Positions 10,113-36,069 of a stretch of 42,631 nucleotides of DNA are shown piece by piece (the first letter of the stretch is position 1; every line of letters starts with the position of its first letter). The stretch lies in IMG/VR virus record IMGVR_UViG_3300021963_007070, positions 1 through 42,631 of that record, one strand, 5' to 3'. This DNA comes from a virus. The position numbers and the translations under genes are program-made. Below the pieces are notes generated by a model. That model saw only the letters and a program-made list of their open reading frames with translations, was not told where the DNA came from and searched no databases.

Positions 10113-10397
10113 ATGGAAAATAAAATGGAATTAGTAGATGAAATATGTGCTGGTATGGCGATATTAGATTATTTTGATGATGCAATCATCGGATATGATG
10201 TAGATACTAAAAAAATAATTTACGATTATAATCTTATGATTAAAGTTCTAATTGAAAACCATAAACTTCAGATAGATACTGCGGTTGATTATTTATCATA
10301 TAATGTATTAGGATTAAAAATTAAAAATGATGATGGAGAAGATATTTCTCCAATTATTATTAGTAAATTTGAAGATGAGCTAAATGATAAACTATAA
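10113..10397 (+). CDS. Hypothetical acidic protein, 94 aa
   Basis: I do not recognise this protein. It is acidic, predicted mainly helical, with no cysteine cluster or membrane segment. It begins one base after the helicase stop and overlaps the following methyltransferase by 14 bases, so it is clearly part of the helicase unit and may be translationally coupled to both neighbours. Confidence 0.65.
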   Translation: MENKMELVDEICAGMAILDYFDDAIIGYDVDTKKIIYDYNLMIKVLIENHKLQIDTAVDYLSYNVLGLKIKNDDGEDISPIIISKFEDELNDKL

Positions 10398-11442
10398 AAC
10401 TTTTTCAAAGTTTATAGAATGGGATGAGTTGGATTTGGAATATGAAAGAGTAACTCAAAATATAAAAGATGTCCACAATGTAATTGAGGCATTGGATATT
10501 ATATTTAGATATCATCGAAGAAAAGGATTCCCTCATTACCAATCAACCATTGATAATATGGTAAGCGATATGAAATCATTATCTGAATTTGACGAATCAA
10601 CTATATTCAGAGATGGTTACATTGACCAAACAATGCATTGTTTAGGTTTGGCATGGAGCTATTTCCCTCACTGGGTTGATGTTCAATGTGGTAATAGTAA
10701 AATGAGACCAATAGATTATTGGAACGATGATGATAAATTAAAAGAAATTATTAGGAAAACTTGGAATTGGCATCTTAAACATAGTGATGGTAAATTTACA
10801 TTAAATCGTTTAAGACAAAATTTCAAAATATATGGGGGTAATCAAACGGTAAGTAATTTTAGACCATCTGCCGCTAAATGGATTTATAACAATTACGGAG
10901 GAGAAACTGTTTGGGATATGAGCTGTGGTTGGGGTGGCAGGTTAATTGGTTTTTTAACGAGTAATTGTAAAACATATATTGGTACTGATCCTAGCAGTAA
11001 AACATTTGAAGGATTAGGTAAATTAAATAAAGACCTAAATTTCTATGGTAAAAATGTTATACTTCACCAATTGGGTTCAGAGGTATTTGTACCTGAAAAA
11101 GAAACTTTGGATTTATGTTTTACTTCTCCGCCTTATTTTAATACTGAGAAGTATAGTGAGGAAGAAACCCAATCATATAAAAAATATCCAACACCACATT
11201 TATGGGTAGAGGGATTTTTAAGGCAAACTATGGCAAATTGTCATATTGGCTTAAAAAATGGGGGGAAAATGTTATTAAATATAGCAAATACTCCTAAACA
11301 TAAAGATATAGAGAGTGAAACAATAAGGGTGGCAGATGAAGTTGGGTTTGTATTGAGAAATACTATAAAATTAGCACTTTCTTCAATCGCAGGAAAGGGT
11401 ATTAAATATGAACCAATATTCATTTTTGAGAAAAAAAACTAA
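10384..11442 (+). CDS. SPPY-motif methyltransferase, copy 1
   Basis: 352 aa. A SAM-binding motif I variant (WDMSCGWGGRL, about residues 178-188) is followed by YIGTDP (motif II) and TSPPYFN with the catalytic SPPY at 248-251, the order of amino-methyltransferases acting on DNA adenine N6 or cytosine N4. The segment FRPSAAKWIYNNY before motif I is shared with two longer paralogues at 21253 and 22461. The N-terminal about 150 residues differ from those copies. No recognisable restriction enzyme is adjacent, so it may be an orphan, anti-restriction or modification enzyme. The substrate is inferred, not shown. Confidence 0.78.
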   Translation: MINYKTFSKFIEWDELDLEYERVTQNIKDVHNVIEALDIIFRYHRRKGFPHYQSTIDNMVSDMKSLSEFDESTIFRDGYIDQTMHCLGLAWSYFPHWVDVQCGNSKMRPIDYWNDDDKLKEIIRKTWNWHLKHSDGKFTLNRLRQNFKIYGGNQTVSNFRPSAAKWIYNNYGGETVWDMSCGWGGRLIGFLTSNCKTYIGTDPSSKTFEGLGKLNKDLNFYGKNVILHQLGSEVFVPEKETLDLCFTSPPYFNTEKYSEEETQSYKKYPTPHLWVEGFLRQTMANCHIGLKNGGKMLLNIANTPKHKDIESETIRVADEVGFVLRNTIKLALSSIAGKGIKYEPIFIFEKKN

Positions 11443-19246: not shown

Positions 19247-20707
19247 ATGTGCGGAATAATAGGAGGAAATTGGTTTAAATCGGATGAACAAACTAATATT
19301 CATTTACAAAAAATAATTCATAGAGGTAGAGATGCTTCTATTGTAGATAAGATAGACAATGTCTTTGTTGGGCACAATCGTCTTTCAATTCAAGATTTAT
19401 CTTCAACTGCAAACCAACCAATGTGGAATAGTGATAAAACTATTTGCTTGGTTTACAATGGTGAGTTGTGGGATAGTCAATACACAAAAGAATTAAAAGA
19501 AAAAATTAATTTACCTTTCCGAACAAAATCTGACACCGAAATAATACTCAATGGATATGAACAATTTGGGGTAGATGTGTTTAAGGAACTGGATGGTATG
19601 TTTTCGTTTGCAATTGTTGATACTAAACTTAATAAAGTATTTGTAGTTAGAGATTATGTAGGCGAACTTCCATTGTGGTATGCTATCGATAATGATGGTA
19701 AGTTAGTATTTTCTTCAGAAAAGAAAGGCCTTCCACTTAATGATTTATATGAAACTCAGGTTAAGGCAATTTATCCAGGCACTTATTTAGAATACAATTA
19801 TAAAACATTAGAACATTCAACACAAACTTATTACACACTTCCAACTGAAATTATTAACGATGATAGAGAAACAATTGTTAAGAATATCAGAACAATGTTG
19901 GAAGAAGCTGTTAAAGTAAAGATGGTATCGGACGTTCCAATCTGCACCATTTTAAGTGGGGGTATTGATTCGGTGATAACAACTTACATACTTTCAAAGA
20001 TAAACCCTAATATTGAGGCATTTGTAGTTTCAATGGGTGATGGTGATACAAAGAACGATGATATAAAATATGCCAGAATTGCAGCTAAAGAGTTTGGTGT
20101 TAAATTGCATGAAATTATACTAACTGAAAAAGATGTTGAAGATGCGATTGAAGAAACACTTTATGTGATTGAGCAGAGTAGATGGCAGAATGTAGGTTCA
20201 GCAATTGCACAAATAGCCCTTTCAAAGAGGATAAATGAATTGGGTTTCAAAGTTGTGTTTAGTGGTGACCTATCGGATGAGATATGGGGAAGTTATGGGC
20301 ACATTCAGGCGTTTCATTGGAGACCAGAAGATTATGATGTAGCTAGAAGGAAATTAGTAGAGGATGTACATAAGACAAATTTCTTAACCACCAATCAATC
20401 TATTATGTGGGGTGGAACGGTAGAGGTGAGAACTCCTTATAGTTGGAGACCGTTTGTAGAATATACACTTAATATCCCTCCATTATATCAAAAAGAAAAC
20501 GGACACATGAAACCTCTATTGAGAGCAGCGTTTAAGGGTGAAATTTCCGATGAACTTTTGTATAGACCTAAAGTTTATTTTGCTAAAGGTTGTAGAACAG
20601 GTGATATGATGGAACATCGAAAAGACATTTTGAAATCTCAATTAAAATCCTTATATTCGTATAAGAATGATATTTTACTTAATAAATTTTTCTCAATAAA
20701 TGGTTAG
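19247..20707 (+). CDS. asnB: Asparagine synthetase, glutamine-hydrolysing type
   Basis: Class II glutamine amidotransferase joined to a PP-loop ATP pyrophosphatase, which together convert aspartate to asparagine or amidate another carboxylate. 486 aa against 554 for E. coli AsnB. MCGI at the N-terminus exposes the C2 nucleophile; HRGRD, GHNRLSI and YNGELW are glutaminase motifs; SGGIDS at 237-242 is the PP-loop. Both active sites look intact. Phage copies are uncommon; here it sits with a GNAT and methyltransferases, so it may amidate something other than aspartate. That alternative is inference. Confidence 0.9.
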   Translation: MCGIIGGNWFKSDEQTNIHLQKIIHRGRDASIVDKIDNVFVGHNRLSIQDLSSTANQPMWNSDKTICLVYNGELWDSQYTKELKEKINLPFRTKSDTEIILNGYEQFGVDVFKELDGMFSFAIVDTKLNKVFVVRDYVGELPLWYAIDNDGKLVFSSEKKGLPLNDLYETQVKAIYPGTYLEYNYKTLEHSTQTYYTLPTEIINDDRETIVKNIRTMLEEAVKVKMVSDVPICTILSGGIDSVITTYILSKINPNIEAFVVSMGDGDTKNDDIKYARIAAKEFGVKLHEIILTEKDVEDAIEETLYVIEQSRWQNVGSAIAQIALSKRINELGFKVVFSGDLSDEIWGSYGHIQAFHWRPEDYDVARRKLVEDVHKTNFLTTNQSIMWGGTVEVRTPYSWRPFVEYTLNIPPLYQKENGHMKPLLRAAFKGEISDELLYRPKVYFAKGCRTGDMMEHRKDILKSQLKSLYSYKNDILLNKFFSING

Positions 20708-21275
20708 AATACTTAATATACAAAATGATGGGGATGAAATGGAAGCAGCCATCAGAGAAGCAATGGAAATAATTGATTTATATCCAAAAGTATTTCCTCA
20801 TTTAGCGGGGCAAGGATTTAAATTAAAAAAGTATTTTAGTAAACCAAATGGTGGAGTTGTATTACAAGATGGTGTAGTTATAACCTTTGAGAAAAGCAAG
20901 GGTAATTCTAAAATTGCAAGAAAGACATTTGCTAGAAAGAAGAAGGGAGATATGATAATTCATCAGATTGCATCAAAGGAAAGAAATGGCTCTGCTCAAA
21001 GAGTTTTTAATCAATTCGTTGAGTATTGCAAATCAAAGCAGTGTGAGAATATTATTTTATCGGTTAGAACTGCAAATGAAACCGCTAGAAAATTTTACGA
21101 AAGAAATGGATTTCAATTAGTAGATGAAAATAGTGAAATGTGGCATGGTAAAAAAGAAGGATTTATATCAGGCTCAATTTATAAACTAAGATTGCCGGCT
21201 GATAAAAACATTGAAACTATCACCGATAATAAAAAATATAACTTTATAAGAAATGTATTTAGATTATTTCGATAA
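20700..21275 (+). CDS. GNAT-family N-acetyltransferase-like protein
   Basis: 191 aa. The C-terminal half has the GNAT core: MIIHQIASKERNGSAQRVFNQF (acetyl-CoA-binding region with an altered Q/RxxGxG/A loop), LSVRTANETARKFYERNGF (the usual strand 5/alpha 4 signature) and a closing strand SIYKLRL. The N-terminal about 70 residues are less clear. It starts inside the asparagine synthetase gene (8-base overlap) and its end overlaps the next methyltransferase by 23 bases, so the three are tightly coupled. The acceptor is unknown; a Mom-like DNA modification role is possible but unproven. Confidence 0.75.
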   Translation: MVRILNIQNDGDEMEAAIREAMEIIDLYPKVFPHLAGQGFKLKKYFSKPNGGVVLQDGVVITFEKSKGNSKIARKTFARKKKGDMIIHQIASKERNGSAQRVFNQFVEYCKSKQCENIILSVRTANETARKFYERNGFQLVDENSEMWHGKKEGFISGSIYKLRLPADKNIETITDNKKYNFIRNVFRLFR

Positions 21276-22482
21276 ATTTAAGGGAATGACTCCCTATCTT
21301 CATATCGGTAAAGAAGAATGGACTTATATAAAAAATACATTCGACCTTATCGATGTAAAAGAATCATTGGCGGATATTCTTATGGAGTATCCAATTCCTT
21401 ATGCGGATATTTCTGAATCAGAGGCATTAGATGCTTACAAAAAACTAAAAGGAACTTGGTGGGCTGATATTCTTAAAGAAGGAGAGTGGTTTCCTAGAAA
21501 AGCATCTGAAAGTAGATACCCATTAACATTTAGAGGTAAACAACAATACTTTAGTAGAAACAATGTTGGTAATGAATCATCTAATTTTTTCCAACAAGCA
21601 AATCGTTGGAGTGTAGATGGAACCGTTTCACCTGGCCCAAAAAGAACTTGGGAAACGAGAGAGTTTATGGTTTCACTTATGGGTGGGTTATATACTCTTA
21701 AATTTGATGAGATAGATAGAAACTCTTTAAGAACTTGTTTAGGTTTAAGAAAATACATTTGTGCACAATTCAAACCTAATGTAGCAAAGGCATTATATGA
21801 TTACCTTAAAGTGGAGAATGTATTGGATTTCTCAGCAGGGTGGGGAGACCGTTTAGCGGGATTCTATGCGAGCGAAGGTGGAAAGCATTATGTAGGTGTA
21901 GACCCTAGAAAAGAAAACCACCCAATATACCGCCAACAGGCAGATTGGTATGAAAAACACCGAACATTTTTTGAAGTAGAAAAGAGAGCCGATTTTCACT
22001 GTTCACCTGCGGAAGATTTAGATTTTTCACAATACACCGACCATTTTGATATTGTGTTTACTTCACCTCCTTATTTCAATGTAGAAAGATATTCATACGA
22101 TGATACCCAGAGTTGGGTAAGATATAAATCAATTGATGCGTGGAATGAACAATTTTTACATAAAGTAATTCATAACCTATGGCCTACAATTCGTAAGGGT
22201 GGATATTTGGCAGTAAACATTGCGGATGTATATGCTAAATCAAATGATAGAGAGAAGGGATATGTGGAGATTACAAACCCTATGAATGATTATATTCAAA
22301 CATTAGGTGCAGAATACGAAGGATGTTTAGGCATGGAGATGGCTAAGAGGCCAGGTTCAGCAGGAGCAGGTGCTATCATCGAAGGTGATGAAGACCGTTA
22401 TACCGAAGAGGCTTTGGAAAAAGCAAAAGAAGCAGAAGGTAAAAGATTTTGTGAACCTATTTGGATATGGAAAAAACTATAA
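21253..22482 (+). CDS. SPPY-motif methyltransferase, copy 2
   Basis: 409 aa. QFKPNVAKALYDY leads into SAM motif I (LDFSAGWGDRLAGF), then YVGVDP and TSPPYFN with SPPY at 271-274. This is the layout of DNA amino-methyltransferases. The N-terminal about 180 residues form a conserved domain shared with the next gene (for example LKGTWW, EWFPR, YPLTF), which may recognise the target. It is roughly half identical to copy 3 by eye over the whole length, including the C-terminal MEMAKRPGS motif and the W-I-W ending. Target base is not determined by the sequence. Confidence 0.82.
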   Translation: MYLDYFDKFKGMTPYLHIGKEEWTYIKNTFDLIDVKESLADILMEYPIPYADISESEALDAYKKLKGTWWADILKEGEWFPRKASESRYPLTFRGKQQYFSRNNVGNESSNFFQQANRWSVDGTVSPGPKRTWETREFMVSLMGGLYTLKFDEIDRNSLRTCLGLRKYICAQFKPNVAKALYDYLKVENVLDFSAGWGDRLAGFYASEGGKHYVGVDPRKENHPIYRQQADWYEKHRTFFEVEKRADFHCSPAEDLDFSQYTDHFDIVFTSPPYFNVERYSYDDTQSWVRYKSIDAWNEQFLHKVIHNLWPTIRKGGYLAVNIADVYAKSNDREKGYVEITNPMNDYIQTLGAEYEGCLGMEMAKRPGSAGAGAIIEGDEDRYTEEALEKAKEAEGKRFCEPIWIWKKL

Positions 22483-23690
22483 AAGAATACTTTAGTAAGT
22501 TCTATGATATGAAACCATACCTCACTATTGATGAAGAGGAATGGGCATATATTTTAAAAACTTATGATAAAGAAGAAATTATAGAAACCCTTTCAGAAGT
22601 TTGTCATACATATCCACTTCCGATACCGGTTTATACAAATGAAGAAGTATTAGAAGATTATAAAAAATTAAAAGGAACTTGGTGGCCTGATATACTAATT
22701 GAAGGTAATTGGTTTCCACGCAATGGTAGAGAAAGTAAATATCCACTTACATTTGATGGTAAGTTTATGTACTTTAAAAAATATACCGTTGGTAATAAGG
22801 CATCTAATAAATTTCACGTAGAGAACCGATATAAAGTTGATTGGGTAAGAGGCCCATCTGGTTGGAGAACGTGGCAGACAGTTGAAGGAATAAAGACTAT
22901 CGTAAGAGCATTCTTTACTTTGGATAAGGTATTAACTGATGTAAACATTAATACTTTGAAGATGGCTATGAATTTAAGAAAATATGTAGCTTCTCAATTC
23001 AAACCTAATGTAGCAAAAGCACTTTATGATTATTTCAAATCTGAATACATATTAGATTTTTCTGCAGGATGGGGTGATAGATTTGCCGGATTTTATGCGG
23101 CAGATAATACTAAACATTATGTTGGTATTGACCCAAACTTAAACAATCATCAAAATTATCTTTTGCAAGAAGAATACTATAAAACTAATCAAACATTTTT
23201 TGAGAGTGAAAAAAATGCTACATTTATTCCACAACCAGCGGAAGATGTAGATTATTCAGAATATGAAAATTATTTTGATACTATCTTTACTTCACCACCG
23301 TATTTTAATACCGAAAGATATTCTGATCACGAAACTCAATCTTATTTGAGATATAAACAAATAGATGATTGGAACACAAACTTTTTACACAAAGCATTAG
23401 ATAAAATGATTCCAACTCTTAAAAAGGGCGGAGTGTTAGCAGTTAATATATCAGATGTGTTTTCTGCACCTGATGGAGGTTATGTAGATATTACTAATGC
23501 TATGAACGATTTTCTTCATTCTAAGGGGTTAAAATATAGAGGGTGTATTGGTATGGAAATGACGAAAAGACCTAACAGTGGAGGTGCTGGTACTGCTGTA
23601 AGTGATTATTACTCAGAGGATTCGAAGAAGCAAGCGGAAGAAGGAAAAAATCAAGCATTTGGAGAACCAGTATGGATATGGGAAAAATAG
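22461..23690 (+). CDS. SPPY-motif methyltransferase, copy 3 (tandem paralogue)
   Basis: 409 aa, the same length as copy 2 and collinear with it: EEWAYILKTYD, LKGTWWPDIL, QFKPNVAKALYDY, LDFSAGWGDRFAGF, TSPPYFN (SPPY at 278-281), MEMTKRPNS and a W-I-W ending. It starts 22 bases inside copy 2, and the aligned N-termini support this start. Two intact copies with kept catalytic motifs suggest different targets or a heteromer rather than decay. Confidence 0.82.
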   Translation: MDMEKTIKEYFSKFYDMKPYLTIDEEEWAYILKTYDKEEIIETLSEVCHTYPLPIPVYTNEEVLEDYKKLKGTWWPDILIEGNWFPRNGRESKYPLTFDGKFMYFKKYTVGNKASNKFHVENRYKVDWVRGPSGWRTWQTVEGIKTIVRAFFTLDKVLTDVNINTLKMAMNLRKYVASQFKPNVAKALYDYFKSEYILDFSAGWGDRFAGFYAADNTKHYVGIDPNLNNHQNYLLQEEYYKTNQTFFESEKNATFIPQPAEDVDYSEYENYFDTIFTSPPYFNTERYSDHETQSYLRYKQIDDWNTNFLHKALDKMIPTLKKGGVLAVNISDVFSAPDGGYVDITNAMNDFLHSKGLKYRGCIGMEMTKRPNSGGAGTAVSDYYSEDSKKQAEEGKNQAFGEPVWIWEK

Positions 23691-24574
23691 ATAAAGTTAT
23701 ATTATGGGGATGTTCTATCAGCTATGGATTAAATGCTGATAAAGATAAAATCTATGGGCAAAGAATTGCCGATTGGTTAGAAGTTCCTCTAATCAATTTG
23801 TCTATATCAGGAGCAGGGAATATTGTAGGGAGTAACATCTTATTAAATAAACCAATAGAATTTTTTGAAAATGCATTAGTTCTTTTTCAAACTACATATT
23901 TTGAAAGGCAGATTGATAAAGAAATAATACCAAATCCTTTCTATGGAAATAGATTTTATAAAGATGTAAATTCAAACAGTTTTAGAGTTGATGATTTTAG
24001 AAATGAATATCATATAAAAGAAGATATTCTAAGAATTGATGATTGGGTAGGATATTGGACGGAATATGAAAACTTTTATAACCGAAAGTATTGGAAATAT
24101 GAAAAAGATTTTGACCATACAAAATGGATTTCTTATTTAAAAGAATTATTTAAACAAAATTCTTACTCACTTTATTTAGTTCATAAGTGGTTCATCAAAA
24201 ATGATGTTCAGCATTTATTTTTTGATATACCTATACCAATTATGGGATATAAATTAAACTATAAAGATTATCAGATTTTAGATTCTAATTTTTTTGCTAA
24301 CACTATGATAGATTTTTTGACAGGTGATAGTGATAAAAAAAATTGTTTTTATGATACATTTAAAGATGAAAATTTTTTCTTTATTGATGAGATTAATAAT
24401 GAAAATAAAATAACAGATATTCTGATTGAACCATTGTATAGTGGAAATGATACTACTATATGGAAAGAGTGGTTAAAAGAAGATAGACCCTATGGAACAC
24501 CTGACCCCTGTCATCCAAATGAAAGGGGGCATGAAAAAATATTTGAAGTATTAAAAAAATATATTAAAAAATAA
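23672..24574 (+). CDS. SGNH-like hydrolase, GCS variant
   Basis: 300 aa. Block I reads LWGCSISYG, so the nucleophile Ser is kept but the Asp of GDS is Cys, as in the GCSxT-type SGNH proteins often found in marine phages. ISGAGN supplies the Gly/Asn oxyanion positions and DPCHPNERGH near the C-terminus gives the catalytic Asp and His. The triad therefore looks complete, unlike the SGNH protein at 6970. It starts 19 bases inside methyltransferase copy 3. An esterase or acyl-transfer role on sugar or lipid is likely; the substrate is unknown. Confidence 0.75.
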   Translation: MDMGKIDKVILWGCSISYGLNADKDKIYGQRIADWLEVPLINLSISGAGNIVGSNILLNKPIEFFENALVLFQTTYFERQIDKEIIPNPFYGNRFYKDVNSNSFRVDDFRNEYHIKEDILRIDDWVGYWTEYENFYNRKYWKYEKDFDHTKWISYLKELFKQNSYSLYLVHKWFIKNDVQHLFFDIPIPIMGYKLNYKDYQILDSNFFANTMIDFLTGDSDKKNCFYDTFKDENFFFIDEINNENKITDILIEPLYSGNDTTIWKEWLKEDRPYGTPDPCHPNERGHEKIFEVLKKYIKK

Positions 24575-24900: not shown

Positions 24901-25473
24901 ATGAAAGTATTATTTGTTTGTGCATTAAAAGAAGAATCAGATGGATATGATACTTTATTTGACTATCCAATTATCCACACTGGCGTAGGGAAAATAAATG
25001 CGGGATATAAAACTGCAATGGGCATTCTAAAACATCAACCTGATTTGGTGTGTAACTTTGGAAGTTGTGGTAGTTTCACACTGGATAAGGGAATGTTGTT
25101 AAAGGTAAAAGATGTCTATAATGGAGATATGGATGCTGAACCATTAGTTCCTTATTCTGTCACCCCATTCGATACTGATGGTGATTACTTAGAGATTGAA
25201 ACTGAAGGAGTTAGCTGCTTTACCACCGAAACCTTTATTACGAAAGAAAAAGTTAAAAACTTTCACTCTCAAAAGTTGGAATTGTTAAATAAATGTAGTA
25301 TATTTGAGATGGAACTTTATTCAGTTACGAGAGTATGTAAAGAGTTTAAGATACCAATTGTTTCTTACAAATGGGTAAGTGATGATGGTGGATTAGAGGA
25401 TTGGCAGAACAATTGTAGAATAGGGTATTCCCAATTTAAATTAGAATTTTATAACAAATATATTGCTGGATAA
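24901..25473 (+). CDS. MTA/SAH nucleosidase-like phosphorylase superfamily protein
   Basis: 190 aa. FVCALKEES matches the start of MTA/SAH nucleosidase (with the catalytic Glu), TGVGKINA is the following loop, FGSCGSF replaces the usual GxAGG, and MELYSVTRVC plus KWVSDDG match the substrate-binding Met-Glu and the catalytic Asp. It is shorter than E. coli Pfs (232 aa). It could cleave S-adenosylhomocysteine made by the three neighbouring methyltransferases, but a nucleotide-salvage or other N-glycosidic substrate is equally allowed. It ends in a TAATG overlap with the gp62-like gene. Confidence 0.75.
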   Translation: MKVLFVCALKEESDGYDTLFDYPIIHTGVGKINAGYKTAMGILKHQPDLVCNFGSCGSFTLDKGMLLKVKDVYNGDMDAEPLVPYSVTPFDTDGDYLEIETEGVSCFTTETFITKEKVKNFHSQKLELLNKCSIFEMELYSVTRVCKEFKIPIVSYKWVSDDGGLEDWQNNCRIGYSQFKLEFYNKYIAG

Positions 25474-27383: not shown

Positions 27384-28772
27384 ATGAGTAACAACAAAAA
27401 AACAATCCTCCTTTTATCAGATGATTTAAGAATGCATAGTGGTATAGCTACTATGTCAAAAGAAATAGTTTTAGGTTCAGTTCACGAGTACAATTGGATT
27501 CAAGTTGCCGCGGCAGTTCAACATCCTGATTATGGGAAAATTATAGATGTTTCCGATGATGTAAAAAATAACACAGGAGTTTCAGATGCAAGCGTAATTC
27601 TTTATCCAAATAATGGATATGGGACACAAGAATTAATAAGAGAACTTTTATCTAAACATAAGATTGATGCAATCTTACACTTTACTGACCCTCGTTATTG
27701 GATTTGGTTATATGATATGGAGCATGAGATAAGACAAACTTGTCCATTATTCTTCTATCATATTTGGGATGATTTGCCAGACCCGCATTATAATAGAGAT
27801 TATTATGAAAGTTGTGATTGGTTGGGATGTATTTCCAAACAAACTTATGGTATTGTTAAACGAACTGGGGCATTGAAAAATGGAAAAACGTGGAAGCCAT
27901 TAGAAGATTGGCAAGTAAGTTATGTACCTCATGGTGTTTCTAAATTATTCAACCCAATAGAAGTTGAAAACTCAGAACTAAAACAAAAATTATTTGCTGG
28001 AAGCGATTATGAATTTATCATCTATTGGTCAAATAGAAACATTAGAAGAAAACAACCATCTGATGTAATTTGGGCATATAAAATGTTTGTTGATTCATTG
28101 CCTGAAGAAAAAAGAAAGAAAGTTTTACTTTTGATGCACACTCAGCCAGTTGATGAAAACGGAACTGATTTAGTTGCGGTGGCAAGTAGAATAGCACCTG
28201 ATACTGAAATTAAATTTTCAACTAATAGATTATCAACCGAACAAGTAAATCAATTACTTAATCTTTGTGATATATCAGTAAACATCGCAGGTAATGAGGG
28301 ATTTGGATTGACAACTTGTGAGGGAATAATGGCTGGATTACCATCTATTGTTTTGGTAACGGGTGGATTACAAGACCAATGTGGATTTACAAAAGATGGC
28401 AAACTATTAACCGCAGATGATTATGTAGAGATTGGTTCACTTCATGATTGGAGAAAATGGGAAGGTAAAGTTGAGCACGGTGAATGGGTAAAACCACTTT
28501 GGGCTAGAGCACAAAATATGAATGGTTCAGTCCCTACTCCATACATTATTGATGATAAAGTTGATGTGTATGAATTGGCAGATGCTATGAAATATTGGTA
28601 TGATATTCCAAAAGAAAAACGAAAAGAAATGGGATTAAAAGGTAGAGAGTTTTTCCTTTCTGAAAATGGATTCTATTCACAAAGAATGGCAGATGAAATG
28701 ATTAAGGGAATGGAAAGAGCTTTTGAAAATTGGAAACCAAAGGAAAGATTTGAATTATATAAAATAAAATAA
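27384..28772 (+). CDS. Glycosyltransferase, GT-B fold (family 4-like)
   Basis: 462 aa. The N-terminal LLLSDDLRMHSGIATMSKE has the glycine-containing acceptor loop; the C-terminal half has NEGFGLTTCEGIMAGLP, the E-x7-E nucleotide-sugar motif of GT4. VPHGVSKLFNP is the typical linker. It transfers a sugar from an activated donor; acceptor unknown. First large gene of a nine-kilobase carbohydrate cluster, four bases after the regulator. Confidence 0.85.
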   Translation: MSNNKKTILLLSDDLRMHSGIATMSKEIVLGSVHEYNWIQVAAAVQHPDYGKIIDVSDDVKNNTGVSDASVILYPNNGYGTQELIRELLSKHKIDAILHFTDPRYWIWLYDMEHEIRQTCPLFFYHIWDDLPDPHYNRDYYESCDWLGCISKQTYGIVKRTGALKNGKTWKPLEDWQVSYVPHGVSKLFNPIEVENSELKQKLFAGSDYEFIIYWSNRNIRRKQPSDVIWAYKMFVDSLPEEKRKKVLLLMHTQPVDENGTDLVAVASRIAPDTEIKFSTNRLSTEQVNQLLNLCDISVNIAGNEGFGLTTCEGIMAGLPSIVLVTGGLQDQCGFTKDGKLLTADDYVEIGSLHDWRKWEGKVEHGEWVKPLWARAQNMNGSVPTPYIIDDKVDVYELADAMKYWYDIPKEKRKEMGLKGREFFLSENGFYSQRMADEMIKGMERAFENWKPKERFELYKIK

Positions 28773-28779
28773 GTTACGA

Positions 28780-29112
28780 ATGGGAAAGCAATTAGAATTA
28801 TTTGAAACACCTGCATCATTTGATAAATTAATTGAAAATGTTGTGGGTTGGGCAGCTGATAAAGACATCTTAAAGAAAGAAAATGCACCAAAACAGTTAT
28901 TAAAAGTTTTGGAAGAAGTGGGTGAAACCGCAGGTGCATTATTGAAATCAAAGAATGATGAAGTTAAAGATGGAATTGGTGATTCATTTGTAACACTTAT
29001 CATTTTAGCTAAACAATTGGGTTTAGAGCCATCTGAATGTTTAGAAGCAGCTTGGAATGAAATTAAAGATAGAACAGGTAAAACTGTTGGGGGAGTATTT
29101 GTTAAAAATTAA
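28780..29112 (+). CDS. MazG-like nucleotide pyrophosphohydrolase
   Basis: 110 aa. LLKVLEEVGETAGALLK contains the ExxE metal motif and DGIGDSFVTLI the second acidic pair, the four-helix all-alpha NTP pyrophosphatase pattern. Enzymes of this group hydrolyse non-canonical or excess (d)NTPs to monophosphates. It is embedded between two glycosyltransferases, so it could act on nucleotide by-products of a modification pathway, or simply be a pool cleaner. Length is typical for single-domain phage MazG-like proteins. Confidence 0.85.
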   Translation: MGKQLELFETPASFDKLIENVVGWAADKDILKKENAPKQLLKVLEEVGETAGALLKSKNDEVKDGIGDSFVTLIILAKQLGLEPSECLEAAWNEIKDRTGKTVGGVFVKN

Positions 29113-29114
29113 TT

Positions 29115-30350
29115 ATGAGTAAACCATTTTTATTATATCAAGCTCCGGTAGCAACTAGGAGTGGTTATGGAGATCACGCGAGAGACCTTCTTAAATCTTT
29201 TAGAGATTTAAATTATTATGATATCAAAATTGTTTCAACTAGATGGGGTTCAACTCCGATGGATCAATTAAATCCAGATAATGAGTTTGATAAATGGGTT
29301 ATAGATAGTATCGTAACTCAGATTACTCAGCAACCTGATGTATATGTTCAAATGACAGTTCCTAATGAATTTCAAACAATAGGAAAAATTAATATAGGGG
29401 TTACTGCAGGAATAGAAACAACAATAATACCAAAAGATTGGGTTGATGGTTGTAACCGAATGGATTTGGTTATTACTACATCTCAGCATTCAAAAGCTGG
29501 AATTACCGGAACTGCATGGACAGAAAGGCAAAAAGATACGCAAGCGGTTGTTGCGGAGCATAGAGTAAATAAACCTGTTGAAGTTTTATTTGAAGGAGCG
29601 GATTATAAACAAACCGATGGATTATCAAAGTTAGATAGTATAGAAGAAGATTTTTGTTTTCTTTTTGTAGGCCATTGGTTGCAAGGTAATCTTTATCATG
29701 ATAGAAAAGATGTTGGCGGAATGATACAATCATTTTTATCTGCATTTAGTAGAGCAAAGGGGAAAAAACCTGCACTTATTCTTAAAACTTCATCGGCTAA
29801 TTTTAGTATTAGAGATAGAGAAGAAATTCTTAAAAAAGTAAATGATGTTGCATCAAAGGTAAACAGTGATTTATCTATTTACTTATTACATGGTGATTTA
29901 AGTCCAGAAGATATGTGGAAACTTTACAATCACCCAAAAGTAAAAGCGAGTTTATCATTTACTCATGGTGAAGGATTTGGTAGACCACTATTAGAATTCA
30001 GTTTGACAGGAAAGCCAGTAATTGCATCTAATTGGAGTGGACATGTTGATTTTTTAAGTAATGATGGTTCAGTTTTATTAAAAGGTGATTTAAGGCCAGT
30101 AGATCCATCTGCAGCAAATCAATTTCTATTAACTGATTCACAATGGTTTTATGTAAATTATTCCGATGCAGCATTAAAACTAATTGATGTTCACAATAAT
30201 TATGATAGATACCTAACGAATTCAACAAAGTTAGGAAATGAAAACCGAATTAAGTTTTCACATAATAAAATGACGGAAGCATTGAGAGATATTTGTGATA
30301 GATACATTAAGGTTGCGAAGCATGTAGATTTAGTTTTACCTGAATTTTAA
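29115..30350 (+). CDS. Glycosyltransferase, GT-B fold (family 4-like)
   Basis: 411 aa. APVATRSGYGDHARDLL is the N-terminal acceptor region and FTHGEGFGRPLLEFSLTGKP the donor motif with two spaced Glu; ASNWSGHVDFL follows, as in many GT4 enzymes. HWLQGNLYHDRKDVGG supplies the conserved phosphate-binding segment. Two bases separate it from MazG-like and three from the next gene. It resembles the GT at 27384 only in general layout, so it probably adds a different sugar. Confidence 0.85.
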   Translation: MSKPFLLYQAPVATRSGYGDHARDLLKSFRDLNYYDIKIVSTRWGSTPMDQLNPDNEFDKWVIDSIVTQITQQPDVYVQMTVPNEFQTIGKINIGVTAGIETTIIPKDWVDGCNRMDLVITTSQHSKAGITGTAWTERQKDTQAVVAEHRVNKPVEVLFEGADYKQTDGLSKLDSIEEDFCFLFVGHWLQGNLYHDRKDVGGMIQSFLSAFSRAKGKKPALILKTSSANFSIRDREEILKKVNDVASKVNSDLSIYLLHGDLSPEDMWKLYNHPKVKASLSFTHGEGFGRPLLEFSLTGKPVIASNWSGHVDFLSNDGSVLLKGDLRPVDPSAANQFLLTDSQWFYVNYSDAALKLIDVHNNYDRYLTNSTKLGNENRIKFSHNKMTEALRDICDRYIKVAKHVDLVLPEF

Positions 30351-30353
30351 AAA

Positions 30354-30887
30354 ATGGCAACAAACAGAATTTTTACACCAAAGTGGACTAATATCATAGC
30401 GGAATTAAAACCGATTGCACATGGTATGATGAAGCCTGGTAATTTTTATAAAGTTGTTGTTTACAAATATGCTGACCCATCTCAAACAAAAGTATTGGCA
30501 GGATTAGATACTGCTTATATTTTTTTAATCGGAAGATTTACTGATAAAAAAGTTTTCTTCCCATCTATCAAATTGAAGCATGTAAATCCAGAATTATTTT
30601 TTGATAGTTTAAGGCTTACAATAGATAATATTAGTGAAGAGTTGATAGATCAATCGGAAGAGTTCAGATTACTTTTAAGAAAATTTCCAATTGATGGTAA
30701 ACCATTATTTAATATCTTAAAACGAAAGCCGTTGATTTATGAAGGAAATTATAGAGAATATAAAATGACTTCAATTAAAAGTGTTGAATTAATTCAAATA
30801 GATAAAGAATATCTTAAAGATAAATTTCTACCTGGCTATAACACATCTCAAAAAGCTAAGGAAAGAAAAGAAAATTTAAATGATTAA
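30354..30887 (+). CDS. Hypothetical protein, 177 aa
   Basis: I do not recognise this family. The N-terminal part (IFTPKWTNIIAEL, GMMKPGNFYKVVVYKYAD) and the mixed alpha/beta pattern suggest a compact globular domain; the tail is basic (KAKERKEN). No catalytic motif or membrane segment is visible. It sits inside the sugar cluster but the sequence does not tie it to carbohydrate chemistry. Confidence 0.6.
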   Translation: MATNRIFTPKWTNIIAELKPIAHGMMKPGNFYKVVVYKYADPSQTKVLAGLDTAYIFLIGRFTDKKVFFPSIKLKHVNPELFFDSLRLTIDNISEELIDQSEEFRLLLRKFPIDGKPLFNILKRKPLIYEGNYREYKMTSIKSVELIQIDKEYLKDKFLPGYNTSQKAKERKENLND

Positions 30888-30892
30888 AAGTT

Positions 30893-31216
30893 ATGACATC
30901 CAAAGAATATGTTATATGGCTTAGAGGCTTTGTAGAAGCCTGTCACGAATACGCACCCACACCAAAGCAGTGGGATGCCTTAAAGGATAAATTAGCAGAA
31001 GTAAATGATAATGATTCAATTATCGTTAATACACCTAACACTTTACCTATTCAGCAACCACTTCCTTATGTAGACCCATATAATCCATATAGGATAACTG
31101 GTACATCAATTACATACGGATATCCAAGTGGTAGTAGTTGGAATTATACAAATTCTACAAATACAAAGCCTATACAAACAGAAGAACATTCTGAAAAACA
31201 CCACAACGAAGATTAA
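30893..31216 (+). CDS. Hypothetical protein with conserved phage N-terminal motif, 107 aa
   Basis: Residues 1-36 (SKEYVIWLRGFVEACHEYAPT then KQWDALKDKL) match a short helical module recurrent in tailed phages of diverse hosts. The remainder is Pro/Tyr/Asn/Thr-rich and low in complexity, ending in a His/Glu-rich tail, so it is probably disordered. Function is unknown; this module is often found as a small stand-alone protein. Confidence 0.6.
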   Translation: MTSKEYVIWLRGFVEACHEYAPTPKQWDALKDKLAEVNDNDSIIVNTPNTLPIQQPLPYVDPYNPYRITGTSITYGYPSGSSWNYTNSTNTKPIQTEEHSEKHHNED

Positions 31217-31218
31217 GT

Positions 31219-31842
31219 ATGAAAATAAGTTACGCTATAACTGTTTGTGATGAGTTAAAAGAACTTACCTCATTAATTAACTTTCTCCTCGTGCGTGTAG
31301 ATAGCGAGGATCAAATTGTAATTCAATATGATACTGATTCCGTTACAAAAGAAGTTGTGGATTATCTTACAATCATTGGAGATATACAAAAACAAATTAA
31401 AGTTATATCTTTTCCACTTAATAAAGATTTTGCATCCTTTAAAAATAATTTGAAATCACATTGTGAAGGGGATTATATTTTTCAAATTGATGCAGATGAA
31501 GAGCCCTCCGAAATTTTATTAGAAAGATTAAAACAAATATTGACTGTAAATGAAGTTGATATTATTTTTGTACCGAGAGTTAATACCGTAAAAGGATTAA
31601 CTGAAACACATATTCAACAATGGGGGTGGAGAGTTGATGAAAAAGGTTGGGTTAATTGGCCTGATTACCAAACAAGAATCTATAAAAATACTGAAGAAGT
31701 CCAATGGCATGGTAAAGTTCATGAAAGAATAACAGGATATACTACATTCACAAATTTTCCTGCGGATGAAAAATACTCTTTATATCATCACAAGGAGATA
31801 AAAAGACAAGAAAAACAAAACGATTTTTATAATAAAATTTAA
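31219..31842 (+). CDS. Glycosyltransferase, GT-A fold (family 2-like)
   Basis: 207 aa. SYAITVCDELKELTSLI begins a GT2 domain and FQIDADEEPSE carries the D-x-D metal/nucleotide-sugar motif; QTRIYKN and WHGKVHERI match the C-terminal part of short GT2 enzymes that use a Trp-His-Gly-x-x-His-Glu pattern. It has no membrane anchor. It is the first of six tightly packed sugar genes. Confidence 0.8.
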   Translation: MKISYAITVCDELKELTSLINFLLVRVDSEDQIVIQYDTDSVTKEVVDYLTIIGDIQKQIKVISFPLNKDFASFKNNLKSHCEGDYIFQIDADEEPSEILLERLKQILTVNEVDIIFVPRVNTVKGLTETHIQQWGWRVDEKGWVNWPDYQTRIYKNTEEVQWHGKVHERITGYTTFTNFPADEKYSLYHHKEIKRQEKQNDFYNKI

Positions 31843-31846
31843 TAAA

Positions 31847-32530
31847 ATGCAAAAAGACATATTAATTGTAGTTCCATCGAGAAGTGGAAATAGTGAAAGA
31901 TACCCAAATGTAGATAGATTTATCGAAAATTGGAAAACCAATACGGAAGGATTAAGTGATTTGTGTATTGGATTAGATGATGATGATTCACATAAATATC
32001 CTATAAGAGATGGGGTTATTTACGAAATCAATCCTAGAGTTAGAATGATTCCTACATTGAATCAAATTGCTATGAAATATAGAAATTCATATAAATACAT
32101 AGCATTCTTTGGAGATGATCATGTTATTAAAACTAAATGGGAGAGCACATTTATCAATTTCTTTAATGAAAATAATGGAATAGGAATTGCGTATGGAAAC
32201 GATTTATTACAAGGTGCTAAATTACCAACTGCTGTGTGTCTAACTTCCAATATAATTGATACACTGGGATTTATGGTTCCTGAATGTTTGATTCATATGT
32301 ATGCAGATAATTTTTGGTTAGATTTAGGAAACACTTGTAATATCATAAAATATTTTGATGAAATTATATTTGAACATATTCATCCAGATAATGGTAAAGC
32401 CGAAAGAGATTCTCAATATGTAGATGCTGCATCAGTAGCTTATGTAGATCAACAAAGATATATGGAATACAGGGGTGGTTTTGATTTTTTAAACGATGTG
32501 AATAGGATAAAAGATTTAATAGAAGGATAG
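31847..32530 (+). CDS. Glycosyltransferase-like protein, GT-A type
   Basis: 227 aa. ILIVVPSRSGN then CIGLDDDDSHKYP and FFGDDHVIKTKWE give the two acidic clusters expected around the nucleotide-sugar site of a GT-A fold. IHMYADNFWLDLG further on resembles the acceptor-side motif of related phage enzymes. Assignment is by pattern and neighbourhood; it could be an unusual GT2 relative. It lies four bases after a GT2 gene and two before the FkbM methyltransferase. Confidence 0.65.
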   Translation: MQKDILIVVPSRSGNSERYPNVDRFIENWKTNTEGLSDLCIGLDDDDSHKYPIRDGVIYEINPRVRMIPTLNQIAMKYRNSYKYIAFFGDDHVIKTKWESTFINFFNENNGIGIAYGNDLLQGAKLPTAVCLTSNIIDTLGFMVPECLIHMYADNFWLDLGNTCNIIKYFDEIIFEHIHPDNGKAERDSQYVDAASVAYVDQQRYMEYRGGFDFLNDVNRIKDLIEG

Positions 32531-32532
32531 TT

Positions 32533-33165
32533 ATGAAATATTCTCAGCATGATGAAGATGGAATAATACTTAGTTTGTTAGAAAAAGAAGGAAAAGAATT
32601 TAATGGTGTTATTTTAGATGTAGGCGCTAATGATGGTATTATGTATTCTAACTCTAGAATGTTTATAGAGGATTATAATTGGAAAGGTGTTTTGATTGAA
32701 CCTACAAAAGATTGTGTAGATAAATTAAATGAATTGTATAAAAATAATCCAAATATAGAAATTTTTGATGTAGCTATTGATAATGAAGAAGGTGAAAAAG
32801 AAATACATTTGGGAACATTAAGCGGAGAAGGTATAAATCAAATTTCAACTTTAAATGATGCGGATAAATTATTTTGGGAAACTAATAGAAAAGTTAAATA
32901 TAAAAATGAAATTATTAAAACAACTACTATAAAAAAAGTATTAGAAAAATCTTCTTATAAAACTTTTGATATTGTGAGTATTGATACTGAAGGAAATGAC
33001 TTAATTGTATTATCTCAGCTAGTAAATGAAAATATTTACCCAACATTTATTATATTTGAACATAATGATAATCGCGATTTTTTGCGTAACGCTATGAATT
33101 TATTAAATGATAAATATGAAACTATATGTAGAAATACTGTAAATGTTATTTTAAAATTAAAATAA
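32533..33165 (+). CDS. FkbM-family methyltransferase
   Basis: 210 aa. ILDVGANDGIMYSNS is SAM motif I; GVLIEPTKDC follows as motif II; VSIDTEGNDLIVL is the FkbM signature near the C-terminus. This family O-methylates sugars and polyketides. In a cluster of glycosyltransferases, methylation of a glycan is the simplest reading. Its end overlaps the next ATG in the sequence TAATG. Confidence 0.88.
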   Translation: MKYSQHDEDGIILSLLEKEGKEFNGVILDVGANDGIMYSNSRMFIEDYNWKGVLIEPTKDCVDKLNELYKNNPNIEIFDVAIDNEEGEKEIHLGTLSGEGINQISTLNDADKLFWETNRKVKYKNEIIKTTTIKKVLEKSSYKTFDIVSIDTEGNDLIVLSQLVNENIYPTFIIFEHNDNRDFLRNAMNLLNDKYETICRNTVNVILKLK

Positions 33166-34034
33166 TGAAAATTCTTTTAGGCTGTTTAAATGTAAATGGA
33201 TTGGGTGGTAGTGAGTTGTATCACTATGAGCTTGCTAAAGAATTACATTTATTAGGAAACGATATTACATTATTTACTGCTAGACAAATTGATGAAACTG
33301 ATATAGTTAGAAAAAAACTATATCAATTAGGTATAAAACAAATTGATTTGAGTAGCATTGATACAACTGAAAAATTTGATATAATAGTTGCAAGCCAACC
33401 TCAAGTTAATCAATTTTTTATACAATACTTTCCACACATTCCAAAAGTTAGTATAATACATTCTGAAATACGAAGTGAAGACCCAATTCTTAATGATAAT
33501 ATAGAACATTATATTGCTATTAGACAATCAATAGTAGATATGCTGATAAACGATTATAATATATCTTCTGATAAAGTTTCACTTATATATAATCCAATTG
33601 ATAGAAGCAGGTTTAATAATGAAAATAGCTTAAAACACCAAAAGAAGAGTGGTATATTTGTGGGAGAAGTATTGGATAACATTAGATTCAAAGCAGTATC
33701 GCATATAGTTAAAAACTGCATAGATAAAGATTGGGATTTATATCTAATGAGTGATAGCAAATATGATTTTGGACACCCTAATATAAAATATATTGATAAA
33801 AGATGGGATACCGAAACCATAGTTAAAAATATGGATTTTACCGCTGGTATCTTATTAGGTAGAACTACATTAGAAGGATGGTGTTGCGGAGTTCCTGGAT
33901 ATATGTATTTAATTAATATCAATGGAGATATTATTGGAATAGATGTGGAAAAGCCTGATAACATAGAAGAGTTATGTGATTCTAAAAATGTAGCAAAACA
34001 ACATATTGAATTATACAATAAAATAATAAAATGA
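33165..34034 (+). CDS. Glycosyltransferase, GT-B fold
   Basis: 289 aa, shorter than usual GT4 enzymes (350-400 aa). LLGCLNVNGLGGSELYHYELAKEL is the N-terminal acceptor loop with paired Gly; SLIYNPIDRSRF is the interdomain linker; the C-terminal domain has GRTTLEGWCCGVPGYMY, where the usual two-Glu donor motif is reduced to one Glu. Activity may be altered or donor specificity unusual. It overlaps the epimerase by four bases (ATGA). Confidence 0.78.
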   Translation: MKILLGCLNVNGLGGSELYHYELAKELHLLGNDITLFTARQIDETDIVRKKLYQLGIKQIDLSSIDTTEKFDIIVASQPQVNQFFIQYFPHIPKVSIIHSEIRSEDPILNDNIEHYIAIRQSIVDMLINDYNISSDKVSLIYNPIDRSRFNNENSLKHQKKSGIFVGEVLDNIRFKAVSHIVKNCIDKDWDLYLMSDSKYDFGHPNIKYIDKRWDTETIVKNMDFTAGILLGRTTLEGWCCGVPGYMYLININGDIIGIDVEKPDNIEELCDSKNVAKQHIELYNKIIK

Positions 34035-34906
34035 AAATATTAATAACCGGACATTTAGGATTTGTAGGTAGATCATTTTTACGATACTTTGGTGATAAGC
34101 ATGAAATTACTGGAATAGATTTAAAAGAAGGAAATGATTGCAGAGATTATTTTAAACAATCATCTGAAGTATTTGATTTAATCATTCATTTAGCTGCTAT
34201 TGTAGGTGGAAGAGAAACAATTGAAAAAGAACCACTATCAGTTGCAGCGGATTTATCAATTGATTCTGAATTCTTTAATTGGGTAATTAAGACAAAGCAA
34301 AAGAGAGTTGTCTATTTCAGTAGTAGTGCCGCATATCCAACATATTTACAACATCCGGATTCAAAATATAGATTAAAGGAAAGTGATATTAATTTAGATG
34401 ATATCAGATTACCAGATTACACTTATGGATGGTCTAAATTAACAGGTGAATACTTAGCTAAATTCGTTAGACAGAGTGGAACAAAGGTTTATGTTTTCAG
34501 ACCATTTAGTGGATATGGTGAGGATCAAGATTTAACATATCCATTCCCATCATTTATTGATAGAATTAAAAGAAAGGTTGATGAATTTGAAATATGGGGA
34601 GATGGAACTCAGGTTAGAGATTTCATTCATATGGATGATATTGTGGAAGCAGTTATGACGGTTGTTGATAATGATGTTGAAGTAGATGCTTTAAATTTAG
34701 GTTGTGGTATTGCAACTCCATTTAATGAATTAGCAAAAACAATGTTTAAAATAAGTGGTCATACTCCATCAAAAGGAATAAAGCATTTATTAGAAAAACC
34801 AATTGGAGTATCATATAGAGTATGTGACCCAACTTTATTCAATTCTATTTATACTCCAAAATATGCATTAGAAGAAAGAATTGAAATGATATTAAAAAGA
34901 AAATAG
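34031..34906 (+). CDS. NAD(P)-dependent sugar epimerase/dehydratase (extended SDR)
   Basis: 291 aa. ILITGHLGFVGRSF is the GxxGxxG dinucleotide site, LAAIVGG follows, SSSAAYP contains the catalytic Ser/Thr position and YGWSKLTGE the Tyr-x3-Lys pair. RPFSGYGEDQD is the substrate loop of UDP/GDP-sugar epimerases and reductases. It makes or edits a nucleotide sugar used by the neighbouring transferases. Which sugar cannot be said; GDP-fucose synthase and UDP-glucose epimerase relatives are both possible. Confidence 0.88.
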   Translation: MKILITGHLGFVGRSFLRYFGDKHEITGIDLKEGNDCRDYFKQSSEVFDLIIHLAAIVGGRETIEKEPLSVAADLSIDSEFFNWVIKTKQKRVVYFSSSAAYPTYLQHPDSKYRLKESDINLDDIRLPDYTYGWSKLTGEYLAKFVRQSGTKVYVFRPFSGYGEDQDLTYPFPSFIDRIKRKVDEFEIWGDGTQVRDFIHMDDIVEAVMTVVDNDVEVDALNLGCGIATPFNELAKTMFKISGHTPSKGIKHLLEKPIGVSYRVCDPTLFNSIYTPKYALEERIEMILKRK

Positions 34907-34908
34907 TT

Positions 34909-36069
34909 ATGAATATTTCTACCTTAGTAGGTTTAAAAAATAATTTAGATTATTCTCAAAAGTTTTATAAAAGATTCAGAGAGGTATATCCTGCTGAAGA
35001 ATTATGTTTTGTAAGTTATGGTTCGAATGATGGTACACATGAATGGTTGGATTCTTTAAAAGATGAAAATTTAAAATACTATTATTCTGAAGAAAAAAAG
35101 ACTTTTTCTGATACATTTAATAAATGTGCAGAGATTGCTACAAAAGAATATATTGTATTCTGTCATAACGATATCGTGATGTTGAAGGGTTGGTTAGAAA
35201 ATATTGAAAAACATCTCAACAAGTCAACCGCCGTAACATATACTACTATTGAACCTCCTATATTCGCGGGGCATGACAGACCAGGTAAAATTATAAAAGA
35301 TTTTGGATTAGAATTCGATGATGTGAATTATGAAGAATTGGAAAAGTTTGCAATAGAAACACAAACACAATATAGAGATAAAACATCAAATGGTTCTGCT
35401 TTTTTTATTGCACAACATAGAGGATTATATCTTTCAATAGGGGGTATGGATAATCTATATTCTCCGATGTTTTGTGAAGATGATGATATACTTTATAGAT
35501 TAGAATTATTAGGTATTAAAACTATTGTAAGTTTAGATAGCGTTGTTTATCATTTTGTCTCAAAAACATCTAGATTTTCAGAAGAACATAAAAGCAATAC
35601 AAAAATTATTGAAAATAAATCTATTCTCAATAAGGTTAGAAAATGGGGAAGATTGAGTTTGGATAAGAAGTCACATACATACGATGTTGGGTTAATTATT
35701 CCTAATTGTAATTTAGAATTATTAAAAAGCGTTGAACCCTTTGTATCCAATTTATATGTAGATTGTGATTTTATTAAATTTATAGATGAAGAACAATCTA
35801 ATACTAAAATAAATTTATCCAAAAAAATTAAAACAATCAATAGTGTAAGAGAAAATGATATTATCGTTTTAGTAAAAGATGTGACTAAATTTGATAATAA
35901 CGATTTTTCCCTCATAGTAAATCTATCTTCGTTTATTTCTAATGAGCAAGTAAGAATTGGAAGTACATTCGATTTTCAAAATTTTACTTTTAATATCAAA
36001 AACAAAAATACATACGAACATAAATTGGTGACAACCAAATCAAATTATTATTTAGACAAATGTATTTAA
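34909..36069 (+). CDS. Glycosyltransferase, family 2-like, with extra C-terminal domain
   Basis: 386 aa. Residues 1-about 230 form a GT-A domain: SYGSNDGTHEWL, FCHNDIVML (acidic metal-binding position as N-D), GSAFFIAQ and MFCEDDDILYRLELLG, the late acidic motif of GT2. Residues about 250-386 are an AT-rich-coded, Lys/Asn-rich domain of unknown function. It overlaps the following gene by 10 bases. The acceptor is unknown. Confidence 0.78.
   Translation: MNISTLVGLKNNLDYSQKFYKRFREVYPAEELCFVSYGSNDGTHEWLDSLKDENLKYYYSEEKKTFSDTFNKCAEIATKEYIVFCHNDIVMLKGWLENIEKHLNKSTAVTYTTIEPPIFAGHDRPGKIIKDFGLEFDDVNYEELEKFAIETQTQYRDKTSNGSAFFIAQHRGLYLSIGGMDNLYSPMFCEDDDILYRLELLGIKTIVSLDSVVYHFVSKTSRFSEEHKSNTKIIENKSILNKVRKWGRLSLDKKSHTYDVGLIIPNCNLELLKSVEPFVSNLYVDCDFIKFIDEEQSNTKINLSKKIKTINSVRENDIIVLVKDVTKFDNNDFSLIVNLSSFISNEQVRIGSTFDFQNFTFNIKNKNTYEHKLVTTKSNYYLDKCI

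Follow-up and report, generated by a model that had tools for sequence, protein, structure and literature searches.

An asparagine synthetase homologue, a GNAT-fold protein and two DNA methyltransferases in a T4-like phage replication operon as a candidate variant of DNA-base hypermodification

Described systems and their relation to the cassette

According to its first description in late 2025, the CmoA-CmoX-CmoY carboxymethylcytosine chemistry includes CmoY of Synechococcus phage S-B43, an asparagine-synthetase homologue that couples glycine to 5-carboxymethylcytosine within DNA, and the same report predicts the use of ammonia for a glutaminase-bearing cluster (PMC12783734). TurkishDelight gp124, which among named phages best matches the asparagine-synthetase homologue studied here (AsnS), has a glutaminase domain and is flanked by a C5 methyltransferase and a CmoA homologue, a combination that fits the predicted ammonia-using cluster. 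In Motura, an asparagine-synthetase homologue is located among 7-deazaguanine DNA modification genes, and the homologue of phage S-SCSM1 lies in a glycan locus. Mom of phage Mu has a GNAT fold, and Mom-type and other predicted GNAT DNA modifications are described in jumbo phages (PMC7824862). In the open-access literature, PMC12783734 was the sole relevant precedent found: no paper was found that tied a phage asparagine synthetase, a GNAT and a methyltransferase to DNA modification, or that dealt with an acetyltransferase or GNAT and hypermodified phage DNA, and among titles and abstract beginnings on DNA-modifying amidotransferases, asparagine synthetases or acetyltransferases none concerned the cassette.

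The window, the whole stretch of DNA analysed, is a virus contig of 42,631 bases carrying a four-gene cassette inside a T4-like phage replication operon. The cassette resembles CmoA-CmoX-CmoY in that its phage operon contains an AMP-forming asparagine-synthetase homologue close to a DNA methyltransferase, but it has methyltransferases of the TSPPYF exocyclic type and an additional obligate GNAT, and its AsnS bears the glutaminase domain that S-B43 CmoY (271 aa) lacks. CmoA (TIGR00740) was detected in 0 of 50 records, including contigs of 274, 237 and 209 kb, with the S-B43 CmoA as positive control (E 2.5e-34), bearing in mind that the records are possibly fragments and that a host enzyme could serve. 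None of 31 records had a C5 methyltransferase (PF00145, the CmoX family), again with a positive S-B43 control. Membership in the CmoA/CmoX/CmoY system as defined was therefore rejected; since no CmoA was found, a carboxyl handle on the base would lack a known source, and by analogy AsnS may at most work like a CmoY-type ligase. In support of the original prediction, phage asparagine-synthetase homologues have a proven role in DNA modification in S-B43 and one placed by neighbourhood in TurkishDelight and Motura; the CmoA and C5 methyltransferase of the proven pathway were not found here.

Comparison with Motura revealed a further difference, as no 7-deazaguanine genes were seen around the window AsnS; the transglycosylase PF01702 was found in none of 16 records, by a model that also missed Motura's own gene. 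Thymidylate-synthase-type enzymes are not a consistent cassette partner: among 16 records they occurred in two, Motura and a 274-kb relative. With Mu Mom the cassette shares the GNAT fold, and an amide-bearing adenine would be a conceivable product. Nevertheless, the proposed Mom parallel did not hold at the level of the protein, as the GNAT showed no detectable relation to Mu Mom by BLASTP (E 4.0) or by hhalign (probability 0.35 of 100, with a thin profile and a single Mom sequence), and the candidate Mom membership was dropped. Mu Mom is not known to have an AsnS partner.

The cassette genes and their operon

Features of the window used in the analysis (positions in nucleotides)
Feature	Position	Strand	Length	Description
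MT3	10384..11442	+		distant third TSPPYF methyltransferase; candidate partner, its link to the cassette putative
Polymerase	14689			replication block
Clamp	17296			named by region homology and position
Clamp-loader ATPase	18031			named by region homology and position
AsnS	19247..20707	+	486 aa	glutamine-type, AMP-forming asparagine-synthetase homologue
GNAT	20700..21275	+	191 aa	acyl/acetyltransferase-fold protein, directly behind AsnS in relatives
MT1	21253..22482	+	409 aa	TSPPYF-type DNA methyltransferase homologue
MT2	22461..23690	+	409 aa	tandem paralogue of MT1; likely ATG start at 22467
Following ORF	23672-24574			no Pfam match
MTA/SAH-type nucleosidase	24901..25473	+		candidate recycler of the methyltransferase by-product, its link putative
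Clamp-loader subunit	25473			replication block
Glycan cluster	27384-36069			several glycosyltransferases, epimerase, FkbM-type methyltransferase
MazG-like gene	28780-29112

All four cassette ORFs were present and open, and their families were confirmed, so that the predicted four-gene chain with overlaps of 8, 23 and 22 nt (annotated starts) was borne out. The annotated MT2 start is a TTG, and homologues align from the in-frame ATG six bases downstream, which would reduce the MT1/MT2 overlap to 16 nt. The chain runs on into the following ORF, which overlaps MT2 by 19 nt; among the MT1-relative loci, homologues of this ORF were confined to the lineage of the window, where they come after MT1 or MT2. 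The overlaps of 23, 22 and 19 nt are the largest in the window. However, genes overlap in 16 of its 49 neighbouring pairs and lie within 10 nt of each other or overlap in 33 of 49, and with such tight packing throughout the operon overlap by itself is weak evidence for a functional link.

Upstream of the cassette are RecA-like, helicase and ribonucleotide reductase genes, with MT3 located between the last two. By polymerase, the nearest named phage is Microcystis phage Mel-JY01 (49%), which was absent among the matches of both AsnS and MT2. A photosystem gene, sought as a host clue, was missing from all 20 IMG/VR relatives; S-B43 alone was positive among 22 records. Among PADLOC defence models, MT1, MT2 and MT3 matched solely those of methyltransferase type, and the matches of AsnS were weak.

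AsnS matched PF00733 (Asn_synthase, E 7e-48) and the glutamine amidotransferase family, and its N-terminus is a class II glutaminase domain. It scored 287.2 bits on TIGR01536 and passed this asparagine-synthase equivalog (cut-off 267.1), while an identity as N-acetylglutaminylglutamine amidotransferase was rejected (TIGR03104, 182.7 bits against a cut-off of 570.1). It shares family and intact glutaminase site with E. coli AsnB, but is shorter than that enzyme (554 aa) and has changed synthetase-site residues. In an alignment of 13 phage homologues, numbered as in E. coli AsnB with Cys as 1, the glutaminase residues C1, R49, N74, G75, E76 and D98 were kept in all 13, as were S234-G235-G236, D238 and S239 (the SGGxDS loop), D351, E352 and K449. 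The same 13 proteins carried T321Q, T322N, R324G, E348D and G349L relative to AsnB. Exceptions were found elsewhere: the TurkishDelight homologue keeps E348 and misses TTxR, and some cellular amidotransferases are without TTxR or have D348.

For human ASNS, the report describes E364A and E364Q as inactive and T336I as nearly dead, and patient-variant residues including T336 and R339 as seemingly not adjacent to aspartate or ATP (PMC6748925). Our own alignment placed E364 at E348 and T336 at T321; as T336 and R339 apparently lie away from the substrates, the TTxR change carries less weight than that at E348, where E348D retains the negative charge. The five changed synthetase-site positions make plain asparagine supply less likely, and as read from the alignment the synthetase site makes aspartate a less likely substrate, with the E348-keeping and TTxR-less exceptions given above. 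Cellular relatives of AsnS (80 loci) were 25-39% identical, 59 of the 80 giving a usable frame in the alignment.

MT1 and MT2 are tandem paralogues with 51% identity, both with the SAM motif I DFSAGWGDR and the motif IV TSPPYF. By this combination of motif I with a [S/D/N]PP[Y/F/W] motif IV they are classified from sequence as probable m4C/m6A exocyclic-amino DNA methyltransferases. An SPPY motif points to N4-cytosine. The N6_N4_Mtase profile gave 28.3 bits for MT2, above the cut-off of 26.7, and 22.8 bits for MT1, below it. The predicted MT1 model (pLDDT 87.1) showed a Rossmann methyltransferase core by Foldseek, and a sequence search of solved structures with MT2 returned nothing.

The GNAT matched PF00583 (27.1 bits, cut-off 20.7) and weakly the RimI, N-alpha-acetyltransferase and PseH profiles; its predicted model (pLDDT 84.5) has the usual GNAT fold. 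Its nearest folds and profiles are those of protein N-acetyltransferases. The idea of a degraded acetyl-CoA loop was dropped, as the loop reads ERNGSA in the window and varies around xxxGxA among relatives.

Linkage across viral loci and recombination of AsnS

Searches of viral contigs yielded 240 relatives of MT1 (80 kept), 40 of AsnS, 112 with an AsnS profile (80 kept) and 97 with a GNAT profile (80 kept), the same contigs recurring between the MT1-, AsnS- and GNAT-found sets. Among the 80 kept AsnS-profile loci, the GNAT stood directly behind AsnS in all 77 with at least 200 nt downstream (three had no room), a methyltransferase-family gene lay no more than 4 kb behind AsnS in 55 of the 57 loci with that much room, and a methyltransferase directly followed the GNAT in 50 of 67 loci with room; many of these loci are near-identical, so the counts do not represent independent events. 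The order AsnS-GNAT was kept while polymerase, clamp and loader genes were rearranged around it: the window lineage has polymerase-clamp-loader-AsnS, and other lineages have AsnS-GNAT-MT-clamp-MT-polymerase. Several loci (of L266-L299) have a methyltransferase about 1.7-3.6 kb from AsnS-GNAT, and in L119 an HNH-like ORF rather than a methyltransferase comes directly after the pair. The 77/77 adjacency indicates that AsnS-GNAT is a real unit. The tight linkage put forward in the original prediction therefore carries weight through its conservation across rearranged genomes, and less through the overlaps, which are partly operon-wide.

Methyltransferases were also common on their own. All 33 loci L048-L080 had a methyltransferase but neither AsnS nor GNAT within the stretch retrieved, and the GNAT profile gave no convincing match in 36 cassette-free records, with one 15-bit hit. 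Two of 23 records, from the L043 and L045 lineages with a methyltransferase and no cassette, had a separate, longer AsnS homologue. Conversely, among 19 distant GNAT loci free of AsnS, 11 had a TSPPY-type methyltransferase adjacent or one gene away, which extends the GNAT-methyltransferase linkage beyond the AsnS-GNAT unit; no methyltransferase was seen in the other 8, some of which are contig ends, and Asn_synthase was found in 0 of the 15 records searched out of these 19.

Other genes were observed at related positions. PF05118 (Asp/Asn beta-hydroxylase, of 2-oxoglutarate oxygenase type) precedes the distant GNAT at L359:4348-4935 and L367:3757-4944, and an AdoMet decarboxylase gene precedes it at L365:4556-4993. 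At the AsnS-GNAT spot, L012:7182-7985 and L014:7222-7986 have a PALP-family PLP enzyme, the best PHROG of the L012 protein being 'threonine dehydratase', and L016 has the same spacing; no Asn_synthase was found elsewhere in these three records.

The relative L001 shared 97-99% identity with the window in GNAT, MT1, MT2, polymerase, clamp and loader, but 93% in AsnS; compared with L046 and L024, AsnS was 89-91% identical, the GNAT 48-49% and MT1 72-74%. When compared in pieces of 250 nt, the AsnS region 19250-20500 had its best matches mostly in other lineages, and most flanking pieces in L001 or close kin. The polymerases of L024-L026, which belong to these other lineages, were only 56-57% identical to that of the window. 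Together, these identities and piece matches indicate that AsnS was swapped by recombination separately from the GNAT and the methyltransferases. Such swapping fits an enzyme without a tight GNAT interface and is some evidence against a co-adapted complex. The separately recombining AsnS alleles also fail to support the original interpretation, and a single fixed pathway of the four genes is not supported, since many phages have the methyltransferases without AsnS and GNAT.

Candidate functions

The best explanation, in our view, is that the cassette is a variant of phage DNA-base hypermodification related to, and distinct from, CmoA-CmoX-CmoY; we hold this reading, drawn from sequence comparison, with a little less than even confidence, and the original interpretation is partly supported. 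The substrate of GNAT and AsnS would be DNA, with the steps and product that we infer as follows. MT1 and MT2, perhaps with MT3, would act as DNA methyltransferases on exocyclic amino groups, either cytosine N4 or adenine N6; the GNAT would attach an acyl group at this target or beside it; and AsnS would take ammonia from glutamine and, by an acyl-adenylate route, convert a carboxylate of the adduct or of the GNAT acyl donor into an amide. The location inside the replication module, the AsnS-GNAT-methyltransferase linkage kept in rearranged genomes together with the 11 AsnS-free GNAT loci, the altered AsnS synthetase site beside intact glutaminase residues, and the S-B43, TurkishDelight and Motura precedents all favour hypermodification. 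It is weakened by the missing CmoA and C5 methyltransferase, by the likeness of the GNAT fold to protein N-acetyltransferases with no Mom match, by methyltransferases without AsnS or GNAT and distant GNAT loci without a methyltransferase, by AsnS recombination and the S-SCSM1 homologue in a glycan locus, and by the charge kept in E348D and the TIGR01536 score. A specific CmoA-independent route, in which methyltransferase and GNAT would furnish N4-cytosine or N6-adenine with an acyl or carboxyalkyl group for AsnS to amidate into a Mom-like carbamoyl base, appears unlikely.

The main rival divides the cassette into two unrelated functions, in which the methyltransferases would methylate DNA plainly (m4C/m6A, for restriction evasion) and AsnS-GNAT would amidate or acylate a small molecule or protein. 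We regard this as a serious, if doubtful, alternative. It would account for the methyltransferases standing alone, the protein N-acetyltransferase character of the GNAT, the independent recombination of AsnS, the replacement of AsnS-GNAT by an amino-acid-type PLP enzyme in two loci and the HNH-like ORF at the methyltransferase place in L119, but not readily for AsnS-free GNAT relatives that neighbour TSPPY methyltransferases or for a methyltransferase within 4 kb of nearly every AsnS. A working asparagine synthetase for viral protein synthesis, with the GNAT and methyltransferases as unrelated neighbours, is quite improbable: the TIGR01536 score, the kept glutaminase and ATP-site residues, the conservative E348D and an asparagine share of 5.7% among the 13,679 residues encoded by the listed genes of the window agree with it, whereas the five positions replaced in every phage homologue and the obligate GNAT partner do not. 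Modification of a sugar by AsnS-GNAT (uronic acid amide, N-acetylation) destined for a glycan of the virion or the host surface is very unlikely, as the pair stays with replication genes and methyltransferases rather than glycan genes in rearranged genomes, despite the downstream glycan cluster, the S-SCSM1 locus and the weak PseH match.

Should DNA be the substrate of AsnS and GNAT, as hypermodification would have it, asparagine-synthetase-type amide chemistry in phages would be wider than the carboxymethylcytosine route and could couple to exocyclic-amino methyltransferases and acyltransferases, in four genes that are compact and conserved in many environmental phage contigs. Even if DNA is not the substrate, the family needs renaming, since profile libraries label AsnS asparagine synthase. 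In Microcystis phage Mel-JY01, an S-adenosylmethionine synthase gene (L134:17590-18792) lies shortly behind the clamp-loader subunit gene; together with the SAH-nucleosidase-like gene of the window, it may point to heavy SAM use.
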